This document shows, piece after piece, positions 27,887 to 60,200 of a stretch of 64,000 bases of DNA (positions within the stretch are counted from its first letter, which is position 1; each line of letters starts with the position of its first letter). The notes beneath the pieces were generated by a model. It worked only from the letters and a program-made list of their open reading frames with translations, was not told the origin of the DNA and searched no databases. The DNA is from Crambe crambe (Eukaryota; Porifera; Demospongiae; Poecilosclerida; Crambeidae): positions 2,046,001-2,110,000 of the forward strand of contig OZ004592.1 in the NCBI GenBank assembly GCA_963924555.1, in the 5' to 3' direction. Made by a program: the position numbers and the translations under genes.

Positions 27887-30649
27887 ATGGCAGTCAACGT
27901 TTTCACTACTTCGGCCACCACTGAGAACCTGAGTCGCCACGACATGCTCGAGTGGTTCAATCAGAGTTTAGCGTGCAAATACACAAAGATTGAACAACTA
28001 TGCTCAGGTAACTGAAATAGTAGCTGCTAAGTGCTTGAGTATGCATCATATAGATGTGTCACTGAATTAAGTTAGTGTCGTTTATATATTGCCTTTATGC
28101 CTTATAGGTGCTGCTTACTGTCAGCTGATGGATATGCTTTTTCCTGGTACGTGCAGTACAAGTGATTTTTTTTTTTTTTTACCACCTTTGCAATCTAGCT
28201 AGAGCCTGAAGCCCCAGTATACACAAGCCCTTTATTTCTGAACTTGAAAGAGATTGTGATCAAGGCTCTAATTTTACTGTTGCAAAGGTGGTGGAAGTGA
28301 TTGGTGAGGATGATGATGATGATAAACTTCCTTCCTCTCGTGCAGTAGTAGCTACATGGAATTACCGTATGTGGGGTTGCCCAAGATTAATGAGATGGCT
28401 ACCCATACCAGCAAATTACCAAATTGCTGTGCCATGAAAAGAATCTCATAACCTACAAGATGAGCACAAGGGTCATTGTCCACTTCTCAATCTATCATAG
28501 TGTAGTGAGCATAACATGGTTTGTAGTCATTTAGGCTACTGACCACTCTCGTTTACCTGACAATAATAGCAAAGAATACTTATAGTATGCTAGACTCTGT
28601 TGGACGTATGTGACATTTTTTTATGGCCTTAAAGGACAAAACACACTAGTCACTTGTTTTTGAGGAATTTATGATGTTTACATTCAGTATGATAATGATG
28701 ATAGAGTACCGGTCATTTTCAAAGGCATAGCTGTATCCTTTTATGATGTGTGTGTCACAATGTAATGATTATTACCAATTATCTAGTCAACTGTAACTAC
28801 ATGAAAGATGAGGTACTAATACTTTCCTTTTTTGGTATCTACTGTACGGACATATTCATGTAATGTGTGTCCTTTGTATTAGGCTGCTTGTCATTGAAAA
28901 AAGTCAAGTTCTCCACAAGACTAGAACACGAATACATCAGTAATTTCAAAGTACTGCAAAATGCTTTCAAGAAAGTGGGAGTGGATAAGGTAAAGTGGTG
29001 GATTGCACAGTGGAACCCCTCGATGTCGAAATTCAGTAGTGGCAATAGGATTGACAATTAAGACTCCATTGCTTCACTTTCAATGGTCCATCGACTGAAG
29101 CAGCTGAAACCATTATTGCCACCTCTGAAATAAAGACATCTCTCTAAATCAGTATACTTTTCTCTGGTCCCTAAGGTGTCCAGGAGGTTCCACTGTCTTC
29201 CCAGCTGTGTTTGCTCACTCTTGTGACTGCTTCATTTTCCTTATATGGATATTCCCACAAATGAAGTTTACATTCCAATACATTTTCTTACACACACCCC
29301 ACCCCTGTCTCCCAAAGACTGCCCCCATTGAGAAGTTGGTAAAAGGTCGCTTCCAAGATAACTTTGAGTTCTGTCAGTGGTTTAAGAAATTCTTTGATGC
29401 TAACTATGATGGAGGGGAGTATGACCCAGTGGAAGCAAGGGGTGGTGTTGAATTGCTGACAGGAGCTGCCGCAGTGGGTAATCTACCGAAAAAGACCACT
29501 ACTGCCTGTGAGTATGTGTGTTATTAGACCAGTGTTTATTATCCCATTCAAGTAGTATATACTGCTAAATGGTCTCCCTTTAATGAGACCACCACTCGTT
29601 AAAAGTCACTCCACCATGCACCTAACAGAACAAGTCATCTCGGGGGAGGTTGTGGTACATAGGTTCACTGATTCCTGTGCTGCTTGTATAAATTCAGTAG
29701 GAGAATTACTGGAATTTTCTCGTGTGTGTGTGTATTTGTTAAAGCCCCTCGTAGCAAGATTGGAGTGGCAAAACCTGTTGCTACATCTCGGATCCAGTCA
29801 AAACTGACACCTTCATCCAAAATACAGTCTAAACAGTCCACAACTAGGACCAATGCTTCAGCAGGTTCAAAGGGGGGATCGTCAAACAAAGTTTCATCAG
29901 CTGCTCTTGAAGCAAAAGATGAAGAAATCCAAAAATTGCTAGCGGAAGTGAGTTTGAAAGCTGGATAACTGGTTAAATAATTGGGGTAAGAGGAATGAGT
30001 CCCGGAGGATAATACGTATGCGTCATAGTGCATTTCAAATTGTATGATGAAGTTATCATTAATATTATCATTACCGTGCAATTGACTGCATCCATAATAT
30101 GTGTTATTGTTGTTGTTGTTGTTGTTGTTGTATTTGTGGTTGTCCAGAAAGGAGAGATCGAAGGATCTGTGGCTGATCTGGAGACAGAAAGGGACTTCTA
30201 CTTCTCCAAATTGCGAGATATTGAATTGATCTGTCAGGAAAACATGGACGTACCTGTGATCAATGAAATAATGGATATCATGTATGCTACTCAGGTAAAG
30301 TGAACTCTAATAGGGGGTCAGACTGCGACTCGCCATGCTTTTAAATTCATTTTTCACTACTGTAATACCTTTTAATTATTATAGGAGCAGGGTTATAATG
30401 CACCTCAGCTCCTGTGCTAGAGTATGCCGTACAATAATATGAGATCACCCAGTGCAAATGTGGTCCCTATGGCTATAGCTGATTTTCATAGCTGATTTCA
30501 CAACAAAGGCATTAAACTTATGTTCAGCCAAATTTTTTACTCTATAGGAGGGTTTCTCCAATCCTGACGATGAACCTGGAGAACCACTACCTCCCGAGGT
30601 TCCTCCAGAAGAGTACCTTTATGATGAGGACGAGCAGGAGGAGTACTAG
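27887..30649 (+). CDS. MAPRE1: EB1 family microtubule plus-end binding protein
   Basis: Seven exons (27887-28007, 28108-28146, 28883-28989, 29318-29507, 29745-29947, 30148-30294, 30548-30649) join in frame to 302 aa. N-terminal calponin-homology domain: [21 protein letters not shown] through [28 protein letters not shown], the EB1 signature. A Ser/Lys-rich linker follows, then the EB1 homology coiled coil ([18 protein letters not shown], containing the FYF hydrophobic pocket) and an acidic tail ending DEQEEY. The terminal EEY motif binds CAP-Gly proteins such as CLIP and p150. The symbol is for the family; MAPRE1/2/3 split in vertebrates. Confidence 0.95.
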
Positions 30650-31008
30650 AATTAGGCAAAATATGTATACTAGGAATGTTTATTATGTTTGTCATAACTT
30701 CACACTTCACACTGCCATGTTGCATTTTTTTTTTTTGAACATGCCTCTATTAAAAAAATAACATCACTGATTCCTGATCAATGTTTCAAAGAAAGAAACT
30801 ATTGCCAAATTAGGAGGGGGTACCATTCACAACTACTGCGCAAGTCAGTCATCAGTACAGTATTAGCTGCCCTTATTTTAAGTTAACGCGCACCACAAGT
30901 TTTAATTATGCGTTTACGGCCGGTAGTTTTCTGTTCCGGTCCGTATATTCAGCTACTGTATTTATAAGCATCGCCTGCAGCATACAAAGTTCAGTTGATT
31001 TTTGCAGG
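30650..31008. other. Intergenic, EB1 to selenoprotein gene
   Basis: 359 bp, EB1 3' UTR followed by the upstream region of the next gene on the same strand. No gene seen. Confidence 0.5.
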
Positions 31009-33227
31009 ATGTCAACAGAAGAGGTTAACCAGCAGGAGAGTACTGCGCCTGTAGGTCGGTATACTTTTAAAGTTGCTTTGCTAGAAGCAACGCTCACCTT
31101 TGCCTTTGTAAATGTATTTCAGAGACACCAGCAGCACCCGAGGGCTCTGCTGTTGTAGAAGGATCTGCATCTGGTGGTACCCCTGAGGACCTGATAGCCT
31201 GGTTCAACACCACTATCAAAGAGTATGATGCTGTCTTTATCGTTTACTACAGAGGGGTTTGGTGACCCTACTGCAAGGTAGTGTACAGGATACTGGTGTA
31301 TTAATTTTTTGCAGTAATAGTTTTGCAGCTGTTTATCATGTCGTGTCAAACTGTAGCTGTATTGTCTATTCAATTGTCTGATTAACATATGATAGGGCTA
31401 CCTCAAGGAATTCAATGAGTTCTACGAGGAGCTCCGGGAGAAGAAGGTGGGGATCTTTGGGGTGTGTGCAGAGCCACAGCCAAATGTGGACAAGGCTATG
31501 AAGGATTGGGAACTCAAATTCACTGTGAGTCAATGTTGGCTAGCTAGGCTAGTGTGGGAAAATGCAGGATTTGACATTAAAGAAGCTATCTTGTTTGTGG
31601 TTATGTCTTTCTAGCTGTACACTGCAATCTAATTGTATTTGCTAATGGCGTGGCTGTCTGTACATGTTCTAATTCATGCATACCTCCTAAATCAGATAGA
31701 CTACCTCTAACTTTGTGGAATCAAACTCTCTAATTCATCACCCAATCACCAGCATTAAATTGCTATACTGTTTATTGATCTGCAGTGTTTCTCAGATGTA
31801 ACTCATGTCCTGCGCAATTATCTTGATGAGCAAGGCTTGGTATCCATCCGAGTGACAATGAGCAATGTCCACCCAGCCATTAAGACTTACAATCAGGGAG
31901 TTGCCCAACCTGGTGTCCTCTGTGTTCGACCAGACAAGAGTGTCATCTATGCTTGGGCCATTGACCCTAGCCTTGTAAGTTAGTAAACAAATAACAGACA
32001 CATGATTAGAAGAAGGACTATGAAGCTGTAACACTGTAGGATAGTTTTGGAAAAGCACGCAGAATGTCTTTTTTTGAGCCTTCATGTTTAGGTGATAATC
32101 TTTTTAGTCTGGCTGAGTAAAAGTTATTATGTAATGAAAACCACAATACTCATGGACTACACTGAACAACCGGTCAAACCTGATACACTGACTATAATTA
32201 GGAAGTAGCTATTAATAGACACTAGCCACACTGCCGCAGGGACATGGAAGATGTAAACAAAGGCATCTTTGCTGAATGTATACACTAGCCACACTGCATG
32301 CCGCAGGGACATGGAACAAAGGCATCTTTGCTGAATGTATACACCATGTGAATTGTGGTTTAATGCATAATCAAAGAGAAGCCAAATGGTGTGTGTCCTA
32401 GTCTCCCTCTAATTAACAGGTGGAGAGAGAGAGAGAGAGATTCTCTCCTGGAATCACCTGAGGCCCTGAAATCATGTTTGTATATGTTACTTAGTGTAGC
32501 GGTGACCCTTTAACCAACCCAGGGGAAGACATTAGTATCTGTGTGCACCAAAGTTATAAAAATGGAAGCTATCACAGGGGATACTCTGTCTCAGCTATAA
32601 AGCCAGAAGCACTTTGGGAGAGGTTGGTAATCTGCTGCTCTCCAGCTTGAGGGGTCATGACATTAGAAAATTGTTAGTTCTTTCTTGACATACACATGGC
32701 TCATCTTTCAAGCAGACTGCATGGCTACATCATCTTGGCCCTTGTCTTTCCAGAACTTTTTCCTCCCAGAAAGAATCTCTTCTGGCACTACTCTTCTGCA
32801 TAAGCACACCACAGCCAATACAGTAGTTCTCTCTTCCATTTAAAGGCTGGCTAAATCTTCGCATATTTATTATCATACATCAAAAAAAATGAATATCCAT
32901 CAAGTGTTTAGATTGATGGTGACAGGAGACCTAAGTCGTTGATGCTAATATCCTCAGACCCTTCCCCTTAGTAAGGGTCACGGCTATGTATTACATATGT
33001 GGGTTTTTTGTCTTGATAAAGAAGTGCTGCACATTACCTAGTCCTTTGATCTATTCAATTGACAGATGAATCTCGGTGGAGCAAGTGATCGTCCCGTGCC
33101 GAGGGACATCTGGACTTATGCACAGACCAAGCTTGCCATTCCTGAGGAAGGTGAAGAACTGTCTGAACCTCCACCTCAGTTTCGACGTCGAGGCATCTGC
33201 TCTCTGTGCAATTGTAATCTCCTCTAA
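31009..33227 (+). CDS. Peroxiredoxin-like selenoprotein (predicted Sec63, UxxC)
   Basis: Five exons (31009-31054, 31123-31277, 31396-31524, 31786-31974, 33066-33227) join in frame to 226 aa if TGA at 31263-31265 is read as selenocysteine. The context is YYRGVW-U-PYCKGYLKEFNEF, exactly where AhpC/TSA-type thioredoxin-fold proteins have WCPYC or WCPFC. The frame continues through KKVGIFGVCAEPQPNVDKAM, FSDVTHVLRNYLDEQGL and GVLCVRPDKSVIYAWAID to the stop, all conserved-looking peroxiredoxin-like fold elements. A candidate SECIS lies about 100 nt after the stop. The C-terminus has a Cys cluster, GICSLCNC. Likely role: thiol/selenol redox enzyme or peroxidase. Related animal Prx-like selenoproteins SelU and SelL carry UxxC or UxxU, but this WUPYC branch is distinct. 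Reading the TGA as a plain stop would leave 62 residues and no active site. Confidence 0.85.
31263..31265 (+). other. Predicted selenocysteine codon (TGA)
   Basis: In-frame TGA between TGG (Trp) and CCC TAC TGC (Pro-Tyr-Cys), 12 nt before the splice donor. It replaces the N-terminal Cys of a CxxC redox motif. Confidence 0.82.
32218..32343. repeat. Tandem duplication of about 60 bp in intron 4
   Basis: The block CACTAGCCACACTGC ... GGCATCTTTGCTGAATGTATACAC occurs twice in a row with small differences. Confidence 0.75.
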
Positions 33228-33329
33228 ACAATAATGAACACTTAAAAGATAAACTGTTTTAGCTGTTGTTATGTTTGTTTGTTTGTTTGTTTGTTAGTTA
33301 TTTTTTTAATTTTTTTGTATTTTTGTGTC

Positions 33330-33378
33330 ATGAAGAGAAAGTTCTCAACCAGTCTTCAGCTGGAGTTCTTTCTCTGAT
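33330..33378 (+). promoter_or_regulatory. Candidate SECIS element (form 2)
   Basis: ATGA at 33330-33333 and TGAT at 33375-33378 can form the non-Watson-Crick quartet. Helix GAGAAAG/CTTTCTC plus CTC/GAG with a UU/UU internal mismatch gives 12 positions up to the unpaired AA at 33347-33348. CCAG/CTGG (33349-33352 and 33360-33363) then forms the extra apical mini-stem typical of form 2 SECIS. It lies in the 3' UTR of the gene with the in-frame TGA. Confidence 0.8.
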
Positions 33379-33894
33379 GTTAATTTTTGTCTCATGGCAA
33401 AAACTGCACACAAATACAAATCTTCATAATTACAAATTATTTTTGCTCTCTCCACAATTATTGGAATGCCAGACACGATTATCAGCTACTTGACCTTGGG
33501 TTAGGAATAGCACATATGGAATGTGTGGTGCAGAGAGTTTTTAATATCTGAGAAATTCATCTGCCCTTGATCGACCTAGTCTTCAACCCCTTGACCATCT
33601 AGTGAATGTTACATATGGTTCTCCTGGTGAGCGAAATAAGCATGGGCTACGATATCTGCAAGATACAACAGTTGCTAGTAGTACACTTATTACAGTGGAA
33701 CCTCACTTGATGACCCAGATTTTTTTGTCCTTTGTATAGAGGTTTTTAATATATATATATATTTTTAGTATATACTTTTAGATTGTAGTGTTGAGGTTTG
33801 TCCTCTTTTTAGAGCGTCCTTTATTAGAAGTTCTAGATTCTATTGGGTACGTAGCTATGAAGATAGCTAAACAAATTTGGTAGTACCCCTACAG

Positions 33895-34030
33895 TATACC
33901 ATCAAGTGATCATCCTGTGTAAAGGGACCTATTGGACTCTCAGAATAAGCTTCCCACTGCCGAGGGTATTGAAGAATCATCTGAACCTCCACCCAAGCTC
34001 TTATAACTGCAATCTCCTCTTTTACAATTG
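33895..34030 (+). pseudogene. Decayed copy of the selenoprotein last exon
   Basis: This stretch aligns with 33092-33235: shared blocks include AAGTGATC, CTTGCCATTCC-like, GAAG.ATCTGAACCTCCACC and TGCAATCTCCTCT. It carries gaps and stops and no splice or start context, so it is a tandem remnant of the final exon about 0.8 kb downstream. Confidence 0.75.
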
Positions 34031-34661
34031 TGCTTTTTTCTTCCAATGCCATGGTTTACCATTACAAATGCTATATTTAGGAATAGTCCTATACAGAAGA
34101 AGTCTGGAATTATTTATGGTTGATAAACGGCTCATTTAATCTGACAGTCACCAATAATTAGAAATGATTGAAATGATAAAACACACACACCCTACATGTT
34201 TCCTCCACAAGGAGGCAAGTTCTTCTCTATCCACGTGTTCACATCACCCATCTCCTATGAAGAATCAATCACCAATGTCCTTAACCATTATCATAATTAT
34301 TAGTGACTGCTTGCCTCAGGGCATGAAGAGTGTCCTAGGCCTGCATAGGATTTGAACTGGTAGTTGGATTTGTTAAAGGTCTTGATGGACTGTGATGATA
34401 GCTCTCCCCATTTAAACTGAACAGTAGGGTCTGCTTCACCTGTTATGGGTATAGTACGATATGCATGTAATTTGGCAAAGGGTCATAAAATTAGGTAAAG
34501 GGTTGAATAAAAAGAAAACTATATTAGGTAAAGGGTTATTCATAGAGAGCTTATACACTCACCATGGCATTGCAGGAAAGGAGTTTCTTTATTCACAGGA
34601 AGCATTATCTGTATAAGAAAACAAGTAACTACACACTGCCCAGCCTTTCCAGAGTTTATTA

Positions 34662-34832
<171 letters not shown>

Positions 34833-34906
34833 TCAAATCAAAGAGGAAATCACGATCTGTCTCTCTCCTTTCCTCATCCCTTCCTCTTCATTTCCACTGA
34901 TGGAAA

Positions 34907-34911
<5 letters not shown>

Positions 34912-34959
<48 letters not shown>
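34912..34959. repeat. (CT)n microsatellite
   Basis: About 24 CT units in an intron of the LYPLA copy 1; absent from copy 2 at the matching place. Confidence 0.95.
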
Positions 34960-34960
<1 letters not shown>

Positions 34961-35358
34961 AAAAATTTGGCAAAATTTAGATGCATACAGGCAAAGCTAT
35001 TAATGTTCCAACTGCTGCTGACTAGTTTGTATACATAATAACCTTAATTAATCTACAGATTTCAGTAAATTGTGGGTGCATAATTTCGAGCATAATAGTG
35101 GGAACTGCTCAAACATATATTATATAGGCAAAAAAAAAAAATCTAGCCCATTACCACTTACCAAGAATAATCCTATCAGATGAAATTCCAGTGCTAGATT
35201 GCTCATAGTCCAACAGTTCATGGACTGCAATGATAAATGTACCACAAAGTAGCTATTGTTGCTATTTTTTATGACCCTTTACCTTTTACGGCTGCATTTT
35301 TGATTCCTTGTTCATCCTGCTTTGCAGACTTGTCAAGGTTATAAATATCAAACCTGTT

Positions 35359-35497
<139 letters not shown>

Positions 35498-36177
35498 AAT
35501 ACAAATGCACACTTCCTAAAAGATAATGTTGTTGTAAAGAAGGTTTCAGTACAGCTGAAATGGTGCACACTGTCACATAACACTCCCCCCTCTATATCTC
35601 ACCAGGAAGGCATTTTGTATCCTCCATTGACACTCACTGGCATAATTGGCCTGCAGAATATTGATGCATAATTAGTCATGTCTAAGATTGAGATTTGATG
35701 AAAAATGGGTATAAGGGTGATTACGATACAAAGGAACATTAATTTTAACTCACGCTGTTGGACAAATGAGTTTTACGTAAGACTGCTGCATCTGACTGAG
35801 CATGAAGCACCATCCATCACTATAATAAAGATCCTAATTACACCAGACAAATGTGCTGTATCAGCATATCCTATATTTGATGAAATCTGTGGCTGTATAG
35901 AGCTAGTCTGCCAGTACTCTAGATACTCAAAAAGGAGAAATGAGGGGAGCCTGATATGCATGATCCCATTTCAGTTCAGTACTTGAAAGTAGCTAGCAAT
36001 TAAAAGAACCACAGAACTAACCCTGTGTCCCCAAGACCGTGTAAGAAGATGACCTGCAGTGACAAAAATATGCAGCCATTTACTTTGATCTGCAGCTGGA
36101 CTTACCGTTGCCGTATGTTTAGCTTTGGGATTGGAAATGACAGCATTCTTAAGCAACTCTGCAGACTTGGCAGCCAT

Positions 36178-37376: not shown

Positions 37377-38326
37377 TGTAGTAGATACTTGCATTCCAAC
37401 CAACTGCTTTTGGTGTAGAAAGACTGAACTATCATTCACATTTGTATCCGCATTGTATGTGTGTTGTCCATTGGTGCATGTATCCATTGATGGGGACTAA
37501 CAGAAGGGGCACACTGCTGTGCACATAGCTGGGAAGGAGGGACAACTAGATGTACTGCAAGAGCTCCACAGAACATCAATTTCTGACGATGAAGACAAAT
37601 ATGATGCAGAGACACTATTTATGGCTAGAGACGATGTAATTTTTTCCAAGTTTGAAATTGGAACTATGATGATGACATATGTTTCTGTGATTTAGAAAGG
37701 CTGGAATATTCTCCACCATGTCTGTGCCAGAGGGCATGTTGGTGTATTAGATTGGCTACTGGCTACCATCCCAGAGCTAAAAACAAGAGAATGTTTAAAC
37801 CAAAAGTCTAAGGTAATAAATTATGTGTGTGGTCTTATATGATGATGGTAATTTAAATTATTCACATGGTTATAATAGAGTGGTTACACTCCATTGCTGG
37901 TGGCTTGTGAATACGATAATGAGGAAATAATAAAGTTCCTGTTGGAGCTGGAGGATCCTGAGCACGAGCCAATAGTGGAGGTGGATGCCTGTACTGAAGT
38001 GAATGACGAGGGCACTGGTGTTAACACTGGTCTCCACTTGGCAGCTATCCACGACACAGATGCAGTGGCTAAAATCCTGATCAAAAAAGGCTGCCCCATT
38101 GATGCTAAAGATGCCAAGGTGGGTACACGGTTACATTCAATGGCTCTTTGGATGCACATTATCTTTATTCTGTTTTTCATATATGCAGGGTAACACAGCT
38201 TTGCACATAGCTGTCAAAAAATTGAGCAACTCTGTTGCCAGTGTTATAAGGTCTGAAGGAGGGACTGAATTGGACCTGATCAAAAATGATGTAAATTCTT
38301 TTCATTGCTGCATCTCACAATTGGAT

Positions 38327-38330
<4 letters not shown>

Positions 38331-38395
<65 letters not shown>

Positions 38396-38416
38396 CCTCC
38401 CTCCCTCTCTCTCTCA
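38331..38416. repeat. (CT)n microsatellite at ROCO exon 9 acceptor
   Basis: About 40 CT units with CCCT variants, ending in CTCAAG|GCTAGAG, so it serves as the pyrimidine tract of exon 9. Confidence 0.95.
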
Positions 38417-41400
38417 AGGCTAGAGAAATTCCAAACGATCTAGCACCTAAAGAAGAAGGTAGTTTAACTACAGCCACATGCAGTATTATGTTTGATAAGC
38501 TATTACTTATTTTGTGTACTTTAGTTTTCATTATTCCTGTGGAGATTGAGAAGAGAGGTTCTAAGGCCATGAAGATTTACATAGAAACCTTGCAGAAAGG
38601 CAAACGCAAGATCCCTTACTGCAATTTGCTGATTCTCGGGCAAGAGAGAACAGGCAAAACGAGTCTGTACCACCAGCTGGTCGGCAAACCCTTCCAGGAG
38701 GACCTGGATCCCACTTGAGGAATTGATAATAAGATAGTGGACACTGTAGTCGACACGAGGCAGTTAAGTATCGAGGAGTGGCAGGAGAAAGATGCTCCCG
38801 AGAGTGGTAATCGTTTCTCTGAGGAACTTGCAAGTTTACTGGAGGAAGCCTTGCCCCCTAATACAAAAAGTAAGGAAGAAGTGCAATTGAAAGAGGTTTC
38901 ATGTAAATTGCTGAAACAAAGGATCCAAAGAATCGTATCAAAGATCAAAGAGTTAAAATTAATATCGGAGTCTGAGCAACCAGATGCTGCTAGACTTCCA
39001 CCCTCCCGTAACTTCCGAAGTATTCCCCTGCATCCTTCAGAGTCACAAGCACCAACTCATGGATATTTTCCACAAGCATCCCCCCAGACTATGACTGCTC
39101 CTTCCCCATTACCCCGCATTGATTCTCGTTTCTCTGCTCCTCGCCGTCACATCAGGGGCGAACCTCTGCAACGACCTGAGGAGCCTCCTCCCAGCAGCAA
39201 TAAACCAGCAACTGTGAAGAGTGAAAAGAGAGAAAAACCAAGAAAGCTTCCAATTGCTAGCAAACCTCCATCACTACCAGCCAGCCGAACACCTACCAGC
39301 CCTCTCGTGACTTCTCCTACTACCCCGACATCACCTTCTCAACCTCGACCAACTCTAGGTCGTAAACAGAATTCAAAACTCAATCAGTTATTAAAGAAGA
39401 GAGGTGACATGAAGTATAAGGATCCTTCTCTGGTGCTAAATACTCTGGATTTTGCAGGACAGAAGGAATATCGACCGATGCACCACTGCTTCATCTCAAG
39501 ACGAGGATTGTACCTTGTAGTCTTTAAAATCCCAGATATGATAAAATATATCAGAAGCAAAGCTGATAGTCCTGCTCTGAATCCATTCGAAGAGCTTCGT
39601 TATTGGCTCCACTCAATCCACGCTCACATAATAAGCCCCACAGAGGACTCTGATGAGCAGAATCTGGAGAGGATCTTTCTGGTTGGCACACACAAAGAGA
39701 GTTGTGCTCGTGCTGATATAGACAAGATTATTGCGTTCTTCAGCGAGGACAATTCATCAAGATACATTAATCACATTCACAGGTCAACAAAATCTTATTT
39801 TTTTGCTGTGGAGAATTCCATTGATAAGAAATCCAGTGGTGATGAGTACCTTACTAAGAGTGGAACAAAAGAGCTACAAGATGATCTCAAGCACACTGCC
39901 AATGACCTCCCTTTCCTGAACGAGGATCACCCTGTCATGTACCTCTATTTGGAAGATTGCATTGAGAACCTTCGCATTTCCAGCAGGCCTACACCTATCG
40001 TGGATCTAGGCAAGATGAGAGAAGTGGCCAAACAGTGTGGCCTTGGCAAGGAGAAGGAGCAAAATGTGGCATTCCAATTCTTCCATGATACTGGCAAGAT
40101 TCTCTGGCTAAGTAAGTTATTATAAATGGTGTGTAATTATGTTGCAAATTGTCTCTTTTTTTTTTCTTTTTTTTTTCTTTCAGAAAATTTGCCACGTCTC
40201 TTTTTAGCCGAGAAGGATCGTAAGGAACTTGAGAACCTTGTAATCCTCCATCGACCGTGGATATTTGACGTCATGAAAGTCATTATGGAGCTGAGTAAGA
40301 GCAAGAGTAAGAGCAAGAAGTTGGCAAATACTCAGATTGATACCCTTAACACCAGAGGTGTGGCTGATCTCAACGTTCTCAAAGAGTGCTGGGAGGATTT
40401 CACCAATCAGAGCATCGAAATACATCACATGTGCCTCATACTGCAAGCTTACTGTCTCATCTACCCCATATTTCTCACCGAGGAATATGCTATGATAAAT
40501 TCTTCTACATCTGCTTCTCATTCTCAAGAAAACTTGGATTCTTCGAATTGCGTAGAAAAGTATCTCATTCCTTGCAAGCTTCCTGAGCTATCAGAGGAAG
40601 TAGAGCAAAATCTTCGTCCTGATCTTCCCTGGTTCTCTATGTATTTTGACTTCAGTAGTTTTCTTCCTGCTGAGATCTACCATCGACTGGTCTGCTTGCT
40701 CCTTGCTTCTGAAACTGACTCCCAGGGTCCACGACGACCACCACTGACTAATGTCTTCACCAGCACCATGTGTGTCCTTTATAAGGTCAAAGATCTCCAC
40801 TGGAAAGTCGAGTACAAGAGAAATTGCCACAAACTCATAATTTCTGTTGTGTAAGTTGAAATAGTATGAGGGTGTGAGGTATTCTTTTAGGAGTGAACTG
40901 AAGGACTTATAATGCCACATAGAGTATACACTGTATTCCTTATACAGGTCTACAAGTGAGGAAAAGATTGAGCATATTGATGACATCCACAAAAATTATC
41001 TTGCCAAGATCTGTGATGACAGCGATCTTAAAGGACTCAGTTACTATGGAGGACCTTTGGATGTCAAGTGTTGTTACACAAAGTGCTCAGCTGATCTTCA
41101 TTATGTGAGCTATCACAATGGAAAAACAGAAATAGCCGAAAGAGATGGTGTCATCTGTGAATTGTGCATGAGAAAGACAAATATACATGAAGAACTGAAG
41201 AAGAAGGTAAGGTAGATGTACCGTTATCCATAGCTGCAGTAACTTATTATTGTTGGTATATTATGTATAGCTCATGATTGCTGCTGGAAAAGTTGAATCT
41301 GGTAAGTTTTCAGTGAGGCAAATTACTCACATTGAGACATGCAGCTATTCCATATGCAGTAACTACTGTTAATTTATAGCATTCTTTCTTCTGGGAAGTA

Positions 41401-44614: not shown

Positions 44615-47600
44615 CTGATAATACTAAGCTATTGCAAATTGCTGATTCTCGGGCAAGAAAGAACGGGGAAATCAAGTCTGTACCGCCAGCTGGCTGGAAA
44701 ATCATTTGATGAGAACCTGATTTCCACTCGAGGGATTGACAATAATGTGTTGGATGGTGTAGTCGACATGAGGCAGTTAAGTATCGAGTGGAAAGAGAAG
44801 GATACTGGTACATGTAGTTGTTTCATAGAGAAATTTGCAAGTTTACTGAAGAAAGAGTTGCACACTGTTAAAGAGAGGGAGGTGGAAAAGGTTTCTTATG
44901 AGGAGCTAAAAGAGAAAACCCTAGGGATTATTTCAGAAATAGAGTCCATATTGAAACAAACCTTGGATTGTATACCTTCACAACTATACACCCCAACTCC
45001 TTCGACTTCAGCACACCCCTCCAAAGTTCTGCCTTCCCGCAGCAGTGTATCCTCCACTGAGAGTGAACCCTCTTCTAAGAGTGAATCCACTTCTAAAAGT
45101 AAGAATGAACCCTCTACGACAACTGCTCCAGCACAACTTCATCCACCTGAATTACCAACTCAGGGTATTGGTCGTAAACAGCAGTCAAAGCTTGATTTTC
45201 GATTAAGGAGAGGTGACACGAATGATCTTTCTCTGGTATTAAATGCTTTGGATTTTGCAGGACAGAAGGAGTATCGATCGATGCACCACTGCTTCATCTC
45301 AAGACAAGCCCTCTATGCAGTTGTCTTCAAGATTCCAGATATGATAAAACATATCAGAAAAACAGCTGATCGTCCTACCGTGGATCCATTTGAAGAGCTT
45401 CGCTACTGGCTCCACTCGATCCATGCTCACCTTGACCCCAAAGAAGAAGACAAGCAGAATCTGAGAAGAGTCTTTCTGGTTGGCACACACAGAAAAGGTT
45501 ATGGCAGTGCTGATCTTGATGAAATTAATGAACTCTTTCAAAGTGATTCAGCTTCAAGATACCAGAATCATATTCACAGGCATAAAGATCGTCATTTTTT
45601 CGCTGTAGAGAATTCCATTGATTATGAATCCAGCAGTAATTACCTCACAGAGAGTGGAATAAAGGATCTGCAAGATGAGCTCAAAAAGACCTCAGAAGAG
45701 CTTCCTTTCCTTAAAGAAGATCACCCTATCAGTTACCTCTATTTGGAAGAGTGCATTGAACATCTTTGCATCTCCATCAAGCCTACACCTGTCACAGATC
45801 TGAGTAAGATGAGAGAAGTGGCCAAACAGTGTGACATTAGGGGAGGGAAAAAGCAGAATGAAGCATTTCAGTTCCTCCATGATATTGGCAAGATTCTTTG
45901 GCTAAGTAAGTTGTAGCCAAAGCTCTTGATGTTATTATCATGCAAATTTGTTTTGTTCCAGAAAATTTACCAGGCCTTTTTTTAGCTAAACATGAGCGTG
46001 AAGAATTAAAGAATCTTGTGGTTCTCCATCGACCATGGATATTTGATGTGATGACTGTCATTATGGAGTTGAAGAGTGAGACTATTGAAGAGCTGTCAAA
46101 TATTGAAAGGGATACCATAAAAAAGGGTGTGGCTGATCATGATGCTCTTCAGAAGTGCTGGAAGAAATTCACCTGTCAGAATGACAATGCAGCTGCAAGC
46201 TTTAGGCACCTGTGCCTGATACTTCAAGCTTATTGCCTCATCTACCCCATTCTAATTCCCATTGAGGAAATTCCTTCTTGTCATGAGGCAGTACCGAAAA
46301 AGTCAAGATCTTCAGATTGCGCAAGAGAGTATCTTATTCCTTGCAAGCTTCCTGAGCTATCAGAGGAATTAAAGAATTCAAATAAACTTTGTCCTGATCT
46401 TCCCTGGTTCTCCATGCATTTCAACTTTCGTGGTTTTCTTCCTGCTGAGATCTACCACCAGCTGGTCTGCTTGCTCCTTGCTTCTACTGAAACCGATTCC
46501 TCAGAACCCAATTTCTTCACCAGCACTGTGTGTGTCCTCTATGACATCAAAGATAGCAACTGGAAAATAGAATATGAGAGAGATTTCCATAGACTCATAG
46601 TTGGCATTTTGTAAGTTCGTTAGCTATAATATAGCTAATGCATGCTTGCATGCATGTCCATGGTGTTATGCTGGGAACATACACTTCAGCTATACCAATA
46701 GCTACTTTCACATATGATTTATTCATTGCACAGATCATCTTGTGGTGATAAACTTAAGCATATTGAGGATATCCATAAAAATTATCTTTCTAAGATATGT
46801 AAGGATAGCACTCTTGAAGGGCTGAGGTACTATGGAGGGCCCCTTGAGGTGAAGTGTTCTTACCAGTGCTCAAAATCTCGTCTACCTTATGTGAGCTATG
46901 GGGGAAAAAGAGAAATGATAATAAGTGATGTTGTCATATGTGAGAACTGTAAGAAAGAGACTAATATACGTGATGAACTGGCTAAGGTGAGGAAACTTGT
47001 ATTTCTGTAGGTAATCCTCCACTGACATTATCATGTTACTCATTGTACTACTGTAGTCCATGACTGGAGGTGGAAGTGGTGTGAAGGGACTAGACCCAGT
47101 TCTCCTCTCAGGTTAGTGTGAGTCCCATTGTCCTCCATGGATCCACTCTACACTGCCACAGGACCAGATTACCAATCTTACCTCTCACGTCTCCCAGTGG
47201 ATGCACACCTCCACTTGGAGCAGCAGTTGGACTGGGGCCATGGGGGAGTGGACAGGGACCTGAATGAGATAGCGGACCACTTACTGGACTGGGAGGAAAA
47301 GCTCTCTGCTCCTCTGGGACTGACTGCCACTGACATTAGTGATATCGAAGCTATAAATAGCCGTCCACTGCAGAGGTGAGATTTGAGCACTTGGTGTTCC
47401 CAATACCTTTAATCTCTCTCCCCTCCGGGCTCCCTAATCTCCCCCTGTAACTGAGAGTCCAGTGTGAATCATTGATCTGTTTAACCAATAGACGAGAAGC
47501 ACTGAAGAGGTGGAAGGAGAGGTGTGGCCTATGCCTTACAGCCACCTATGGGAACTTGCTGGAGGTGTGTGTGAATGCTGGACACACTCGGTCTGCTGAG

Positions 47601-53058: not shown

Positions 53059-54998
<1,940 letters not shown>

Positions 54999-57202: not shown

Positions 57203-60200
57203 GCTGGAGAAATTCCAAATGATCTAGCACCTAAAGAAGGTAGTTTAACTATAGCCACATGCAGCATTATGTTTGATAAGCTATCACTTATTTTTGTGTA
57301 CTTTAGTTTTCATTATTCCTGTGGAGATTGAGAAGCGAGGTTCTAAGGCCATGACGATTTACATAGAAACCTTGCAGAAAGGCAAACGCAGGATCCCTTA
57401 CTGCAATTTGCTGATTCTCGGGCAAGAGAGGACAGGCAAAACGAGTCTGTACCACCAGCTGGTCGGCAATCCCTTCCAGGAGGACCTGGATCCCACTCGA
57501 GGAATTGATAATAAGATAGTGGACACTGTAGTCGACACGAGGCAGTTAAGTATCGAGGAGTGGCAGGAGAAAGATGCTCCCGAGAGTGGTAATCGTTTCT
57601 CTGAGGAACTTGCAAGTTTACTGGAGGAAGTCTTGCCCCCTAATACAAAAAGTAAGGAAGAAGTGCAATTGAAAGAGGTTTCATGTAAATTGCTGAAACA
57701 AAGGATCCAAAGAATCGTATCAAAGATCAAAGAGTTAAAATTAATATCGGAGTCTGAGCAACCAGATGCTGCTAGACTTCCACCCTCCTGTAACTTCCGA
57801 AGTATTCCCCTGCATCCTTCAGAGTCACGTGCACCAACTCATGGATATTTTCCACAAGCATCCCCCCAGACTATGACTGCTCCTTCCCCATTACCCCTCA
57901 TTGATTCTCGTTTCTCTGCTCGCCGTCACATCAGGGGCGAACCTCTGCAACGACCTGAGGAGCCTCCTCCCAGCAGCAATAAACCAGCAACTGTGAAGAG
58001 TGAAAAGAGAGAAAAACCAAGAAAGCTTCCAATTGCTAGCAAACCTCCATCACTACCAGCCAGCCGAACACCTACCAGCCCTCTCGTGACTTCTCCTACT
58101 ACCCCGACATCACCTTCTCAACCTCGACCAACTCTAGGTCGCAAACAGAGTTTAAAACTCAATCAGTTATTAAAGAAGAGAGGTGACATGAAGTATAAGG
58201 ATCCTTCTCTGGTGCTAAATACTCTGGATTTTGCAGGACAGAAGGAATATCGACCGATGCACCACTGCTTCATCTCAAGACGAGGATTGTACCTTGTAGT
58301 CTTTAAAATCCCAGATATGATAAAATATATCAGAAGCAAAGCTGATAGTCCTGCTCTGAATCCATTCGAAGAGCTTCGTTATTGGCTCCACTCAATCCAC
58401 GCTCACATAATAAGCCCCACAGAGGACTCTGATGAGCAGAATCTGGAGAGGATCTTTCTGGTTGGCACACACAAAGAGAGTTGTGCTCGTGCTGATATAG
58501 ACAAGATTTTTGCGTTCTTCAGCGAGGACAATTCATCAAGATACATTAATCACATTCACAGGTCAACAAAATATTTTTTTGCTGTGGAGAATTCCATTGA
58601 TAAGAAATCCAGTGGTGATGAGTACCTTACTAAGAGTGGAACAAAAGAGCTACAAGATGATCTCAAGCAGACTGCCAATGACCTCCCTTTCCTGAACGAG
58701 GATCACCCTGTCATGTACCTCTATTTGGAAGATTGCATTGAGAACCTTCGCATTTCCAGCAGGCCTACACCTATCGTGGATCTAAGCAAGATGAGAGAAG
58801 TGGCCGAACAGTGTGGCCTTGGCAAGGAGAAGGAGCAAAATGTGGCATTCCAATTCTTCCATGATACTGGCAAGATTCTCTGGCTAAGTAAGTTATTATA
58901 AATGGTGTGTAATTATGTTGCAAATTGTCTCTTTTTTTCTTTTCTTTTTTTTTTTTCTTTCAGAAAATTTGCCACGTCTCTTTTTAGCCGAGAAGGATCG
59001 TAAGGAACTTGAGAACCTTGTAATCCTCCATCGACCGTGGATATTTGACGTCATGAAAGTCATTATGGAGCTGAGTAAGAGCAAGAGTAAGAGCAAGAAG
59101 TTGGCAAATACTCAGATTGATACCCTTAACACCAGAGGTGTGGCTGATCTCAACGTTCTCAAAGAGTGCTGGGAGGATTTCACCAATCAGAGCATCGAAA
59201 TACATCACATGTGCCTCATACTGCAAGCTTACTGTCTCATCTACCCCATATTTCTCACCGAGGAATATGCTATGATAAATTCTTCTACATCTGCTTCTCA
59301 TTCTCAAGAAAACTTGGATTCTTCGAATTGCGTAGAAAAGTATCTCATTCCTTGCAAGCTTCCTGAGCTATCAGAGGAAGTAGAGCAAAATCTTCGTCCT
59401 GATCTTCCCTGGTTCTCTATGTATTTTGACTTCAGTAGTTTTCTTCCTGCTGAGATCTACCATCGACTGGTCTGCTTGCTCCTTGCTTCTGAAACTGACT
59501 CCCAGGGTCCACGACGACCACCACTGACTAATGTCTTCACTAGCACCATGTGTGTCCTTTATAAGGTCAAAGATCTCCACTGGAAAGTCGAGTACAAGAG
59601 AAATTGCCACAAACTCATAATTTCTGTTGTGTAAGTTGAAATAGTATGAGGGTGTGAGGTATTCTTTTAGGAGTGAACTGAAGGACTTATAATGCCACAT
59701 AGAGTATACACTGTATTCCTTATACAGGTCTACAAGTGAGGAAAAGATTGAGCATATTGATGACATCCACAAAAATTATCTTGTCAAGATCTGTGATGAC
59801 AGCGATCTCCAAGGACTCAGTTACTATGGAGGACCGTTGGATGTCCAGTGTTGCACAGAGTGCTCGGCTGATCTTCATTATGTGAGCTATCACAATGGAA
59901 AAACAAAAATAGCCGAAAGAGATGGTGTCATCTGTGAATTGTGCATGAGAAAGACAAATATACATGAAGAACTGAAGAAGAAGGTAAGGTAGATGTACCG
60001 TTATCCATAGCTGCAGTAACTTATTATTGTTGGTATATTATGTATAGCTCATGATTGCTGCTGGAAAAGTTGAATCTGGTAAGTTTTCAGTGAGGCAAAT
60101 TACACCTCTCATGCACTGACTTTTTTGCAGCTTCTGGTCCTTCTATTAACAATATTCATCTTCAATTGATCCGATGGATTGACAGGGATGGTGCACATAA

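Follow-up and report, generated by a model that had tools for sequence, protein, structure and literature searches.

The genome of the sponge Crambe crambe contains, within a 64,000-nucleotide stretch of contig OZ004592.1 (hereafter the window), a gene that with good confidence can be read as encoding a eukaryotic selenoprotein and as functional. It belongs most likely to the sponge AphC.like group, and the UGA at its codon 63 would be read as selenocysteine (Sec) through a SECIS in the 3' UTR. The original prediction had been of an undescribed selenoprotein of the AhpC/TSA type. A selenoprotein gene of this type is supported as very probable by the PF00578 domain, the position of the TGA at a Cys site and the SECIS-like element downstream. 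That it is undescribed was not borne out, as a 2012 paper already presents the sponge AphC.like family (PMC3473315). The main value of the analysis is corrective, in that the selenoprotein is probably real and its kind already known.

The gene model was obtained by joining five exons on the plus strand between positions 31009 and 33227 (Table 1). Spliced translation gave a frame of 226 aa plus a TAA stop (681 nt), reproducing the coding coordinates first proposed and confirming that a TGA at the first Cys of a CxxC motif (WUPYC) is the sole break in this five-exon frame. The splice sites had been described as clean, which holds for the GT-AG borders found at all four introns; it needs qualifying for the region 5' of the TGA, where in-phase donors are present. 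The exon 1/2 junction is not unique: a donor after 31050 combined with an acceptor before 31125 also leaves the frame intact, giving 224 aa with the TGA as codon 61. Pairing that donor with the exon 2 acceptor of the model (before 31123) disrupts the frame.

Table 1. Positions of the features of the predicted selenoprotein gene in the window and of the SelL-like genes of the same genome.
Feature	Position	Strand	Description or basis
Coding exon 1	31009..31054	+	Encodes MSTEEVNQQESTAPV plus base 1 of the codon that follows; donor GTAG/gtcggt
Coding exon 2	31123..31277	+	Contains the active site FIVYYRGVWUPYCK
In-frame TGA, predicted selenocysteine residue 63	31263..31265	+	Sole internal in-frame stop; aligns with Cys of relatives
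Coding exon 3	31396..31524	+	Spliced frame
Coding exon 4	31786..31974	+	Spliced frame
Coding exon 5	33066..33227	+	Ends in TAA stop; last 14 residues RRRGICSLCNCNLL at 33183-33224
SECIS-like element, 3' UTR	33330..33377	+	AUGA, 8-bp helix, unpaired AA (33347-33348), GA (33376-33377); fold and consensus scan
Three SelL-like genes	L105:1075-2007, L107:1078-1998, L110:1015-1950	n/a	SelL-related model and UxxU

The nearest of the in-phase donors upstream of the TGA lies after 31256 (GGG/GTTTGG). Splicing from this site would take out VWUPYCK with no frameshift, leaving a protein without an active site. Such splicing around the TGA is unlikely, because the upstream donor is weak (consensus fit at 4/9 bases vs 6/9 for the donor after 31277, AAG/GTAGTG) and because its use deletes VWUPYCK, the home of the invariant CxxC; it would also leave the SECIS purposeless. 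Although the donor is in phase with exon 3, removal of the TGA by alternative splicing is an extremely improbable account of the locus.

The TGA at codon 63 takes the first position of the CxxC motif in the context VYYRGVWUPYCKGYL, and Cys66 is the second Cys. Homologues with Cys aligned to the TGA had been proposed as supporting evidence, and they were found: Cys occupies the positions of both residue 63 and residue 66 in 8/8 prokaryotic relatives examined, of 28 matched, these eight (seven bacteria and one archaeon) being hand-picked, mostly among the best, with the other 20/28 outside the count. The best 80 of 495 relatives from a genome-contig scan were not counted for Cys at residue 63, because the pattern used there required CP[YV]C. 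Selenocysteine insertion at the predicted residue 63 is very likely, judged from sequence. Alternatively, the TGA might be a genuine nonsense mutation in a pseudogene, or an assembly error in which TGC/TGT was misread, and a degenerate copy of exon 5 nearby (33902-33997) could be taken in that sense; however, the frame is otherwise undamaged, as are its splice sites and its stop, a SECIS-like element lies downstream, and the genome has Sec machinery as well as further redox genes that contain a TGA, which leaves this explanation very unlikely.

The SECIS-like hairpin expected in the 3' UTR was recovered both by folding and by a consensus scan. Folding of 33310-33400 gave z = -3.1, with 0/200 shuffles equally stable, and the element folded alone reached -15.8 kcal/mol with its AA unpaired. 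The scan used a SECIS-core rule ([AG]TGA, helix pairs, an apical AA and a 3'-side GA) that was set after the element had been seen; with 8/8 helix pairs demanded, it matched the 64-kb window at one place on the plus strand, the element itself (33330-33377), and nowhere on the minus strand. The chance level for the 8/8-pair rule, taken from 40 first-order simulated strands, was a mean of 0.4 per 64 kb, which amounts to about 0.0125 in 2 kb. When the rule was relaxed, match counts were at or above chance, with no specificity: with 8/9 pairs there were two places, one of them at 59796, against 1.6 expected on each strand, and with 7/8 pairs there were five on each strand (3.2 expected per strand). 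An Rfam search of 29000-36000 returned no SECIS family, its single match being a chance-level snoRNA on a CT repeat. Neither AATAAA nor ATTAAA occurs in 33228-34200, and a search of the genome for a second copy of 33290-33400 matched its own place alone.

Absence of selenocysteine machinery from the genome had been named as an argument against a selenoprotein, and this is not the case, given that tRNA-Sec, SepSecS and an SPS2-like exon are present. The tRNA-Sec model had five matches in the 143-Mb genome, one of them above the cut-off (71.6 bits, anticodon TCA) and the other four tRNA-Ser. SepSecS was found as five segments, each above the cut-off. Three SelD-type segments, each under the whole-protein cut-off, lie near an exon reading LKGUGCKVPQKE, which we take by its GUGC motif to be the Sec form of SPS2. 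PSTK was represented by one segment below the cut-off (31.4 bits), and matches to the SelB-type GTPase (SelB/eEFSec) were ambiguous and below the curated cut-off.

In addition, other genes of the genome carry in-frame TGAs. Three SelL-like genes have two TGAs each, in the UxxU motifs GUGTU, GUSPU and VURPU; their scores with the SelL-related model, 98-116 bits, fall short of the cut-off of 120, and they have about 140-160 residues ahead of the matched domain. At a further locus (L116, minus strand) a SelU-like frame has an in-frame TGA in FGUQLC, presumably a SelU-like motif, just upstream of the matched segment. SECIS-like candidates were identified downstream of L105, L110 and L116, including an AUGA/AA element behind one SelL-like gene; none was found downstream of the SelL-like gene at L107. 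Together with the tRNA-Sec, SepSecS and the SPS2-like exon, the SelL-like and SelU-like TGA genes point to an organism that very probably uses selenocysteine. The SelL count reported for Amphimedon is one (PMC3473315).

A profile search of the spliced protein matched PF00578 AhpC-TSA (49.3 bits, residues 51-163) and PF08534 Redoxin (37.6 bits). The protein had been placed apart from SelL and SelU, and the profile scores bear this out. SelL has in common with it an AhpC/TSA-type domain and Sec in the active-site loop, but carries UxxU in place of UxxC; with the SelL-related model the present protein reaches 12.2 bits, far under the cut-off of 120 and under the scores of the three SelL-like proteins of the genome, and SelL was rejected on both motif and score. 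SelU / PRXL2 likewise has a peroxiredoxin-like Trx fold with Sec, but was rejected, as PF13911 (AhpC-TSA_2) gave no match at E up to 1.

A canonical peroxiredoxin (PxxxTxxC) was also rejected. In a MAFFT alignment at 13% identity with L104, a fragment of a peroxiredoxin from this genome (FTPVC), Cys66 was paired with the peroxidatic Cys and Sec63 with the conserved Thr, such that Sec63 takes the place of the Thr which in TxxC precedes that Cys by three residues; BLASTP of the protein core against L104 gave no alignment. The presence of Sec at the Thr position of true peroxiredoxins suggests that the enzyme is probably an oxidoreductase or peroxidase with a Trx-type UxxC site. Prokaryotic selenoproteins have been split along similar motifs (PMC13188914), with TxxU in Prx, UxxC or UxxU in Prx-like thiol:disulfide oxidoreductases, and UxxS in a peroxiredoxin-like family protein.

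The prokaryotic relatives are CxxC peroxiredoxin-like proteins (e.g., WP_041231821.1 and WP_060851041.1), which share the YRGxxCPxC site and, in some, a later PG...YA segment, but have Cys in place of Sec. Overall identity to five aligned prokaryotic relatives is 17-24%, and similarity is seen before as well as after the TGA. Plasmids searched by tblastn gave 28 records, all below 60% identity and none spanning 80% of the query, and no close relatives were confirmed in genome-contig and viral-contig scans with the protein as query.

Selenoproteins of this type have been described from sponges. Jiang, Ni and Liu (2012; PMC3473315) introduced an 'AphC.like' selenoprotein family in three sponge species and called it sponge-specific. 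According to that paper, Amphimedon queenslandica has three AphC.like genes (two coding exons each in a and b, five in c), Oscarella carmela has two, and Suberites domuncula has one partial sequence with no SECIS information. An AphC-like selenoprotein in sponge is mentioned again in PMC3828610; in the light of these two sources, the view that metazoans were not known to have a selenoprotein of this AhpC/TSA-type group is not supported. No mention of an AhpC-like selenoprotein was found in the accessible part of PMC9925728.

The features that mark the AphC.like family, AhpC-like sequence around Sec and a Trx-like domain, are both found in the present protein, as seen in the PF00578 match. Compared by published text (PMC3473315), it resembles the proteins of Amphimedon, Oscarella and Suberites in having a (here predicted) Sec in an AhpC-like Trx-fold protein, those of Amphimedon and Oscarella in having a SECIS in the 3' UTR, and Aq.AphC.like_c in having five coding exons. 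The protein most likely extends the sponge AphC.like selenoproteins already published by one new member, a likeness drawn from their description. With a complete exon structure and a SECIS-like element, the gene would enlarge a type known from three sponge species in PMC3473315.

Some differences would fit a separate WUPYC selenoprotein family that is not orthologous to AphC.like, for example one acquired independently from a prokaryotic CxxC peroxiredoxin-like protein. All three Amphimedon AphC.like genes are reported with a GUGA_AA SECIS vs AUGA_AA here (PMC3473315). Amphimedon has three genes vs one locus here, a protein search of the Crambe crambe genome having matched this locus alone, in four exon pieces (exon-by-exon, and so a lower bound). 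The likeness to AphC.like was drawn from published text, and the similarity to the five aligned prokaryotic relatives is distant. However, Amphimedon itself has elements of both the AUGA and the GUGA kind, with 12 GUGA among the 21 SECIS detected (PMC3473315), and the domain, the five coding exons of Aq.AphC.like_c and the SECIS are held in common, which makes a separate family a rather unlikely reading. Membership of AphC.like is preferred here. An algal selenoprotein, AhpC_b of Thalassiosira oceanica, is also alike by description, with an AhpC_TSA domain, UxxC and Cys homologues in prokaryotes, but is a diatom protein (PMC7539508).

For a gene of the AphC.like type, the proposed mechanism is as follows. 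The UGA at codon 63 would be decoded as selenocysteine, directed by the SECIS in the 3' UTR. Sec63 would then be the nucleophile in a thioredoxin-fold protein that reduces peroxide or disulfide, and Cys66 may resolve it by forming a selenenylsulfide; this could in turn be reduced by a system of the thioredoxin or glutathione type. The C-terminus would probably anchor the enzyme in a membrane.

This last step is based on the C-terminal 14 residues, RRRGICSLCNCNLL, which are basic and Cys-rich and end in CNLL. CNLL fits the pattern of a geranylgeranyl-type CaaX box, with further Cys and basic residues close by, and the tail presumably resembles the prenylated, palmitoylated tail of a small GTPase. 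Under a rule set after the tail had been seen, CaaX-like ends occur in 2/1191 stop-to-stop frames of at least 30 aa in the six frames of the window, this protein's among them, and both frames have at least two further Cys within the ten preceding residues. The tail is absent in the five bacterial relatives aligned, which is a further difference from the prokaryotic CxxC proteins.

Its composition suggests that the tail attaches the enzyme to a membrane. With a polybasic, Cys-rich tail whose CNLL fits a CaaX box, a Sec-based peroxidase would be placed on the cytosolic membrane face, where it might act on lipid hydroperoxides or in redox signalling. A lipid-anchored selenoprotein at this site, which may also represent a WUPYC family apart from AphC.like, is put forward tentatively, as one possible reading. 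Searched by exact phrase, the open-licence PMC literature yielded no prenylated or lipidated selenoprotein. The tail offers a testable idea on the location of the enzyme, namely prenylated membrane attachment.

Several further observations were made in the window. Intron 4 contains a short tandem repeat (32216-32344) with a unit of about 65-70 bases and a self-match of 82.4%. The degenerate exon 5 copy, 3' of the gene, has 51.5% protein identity over 33 residues and includes a stop; at the DNA level it matches at 72.6% over 95 columns (E 1.5e-7). Two very similar copies of a gene with the P-loop-like sequence GQERTGKTSLYHQL lie about 19 kb apart (38290-40854 and 57255-59634, with ORFs compared by eye), and a third, more diverged copy, also identified by eye, is located at 44615-46614. 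At about 53850-54300, a long CT/GA simple repeat gives rise to artificial SLSLSL/RERERE frames on both strands.
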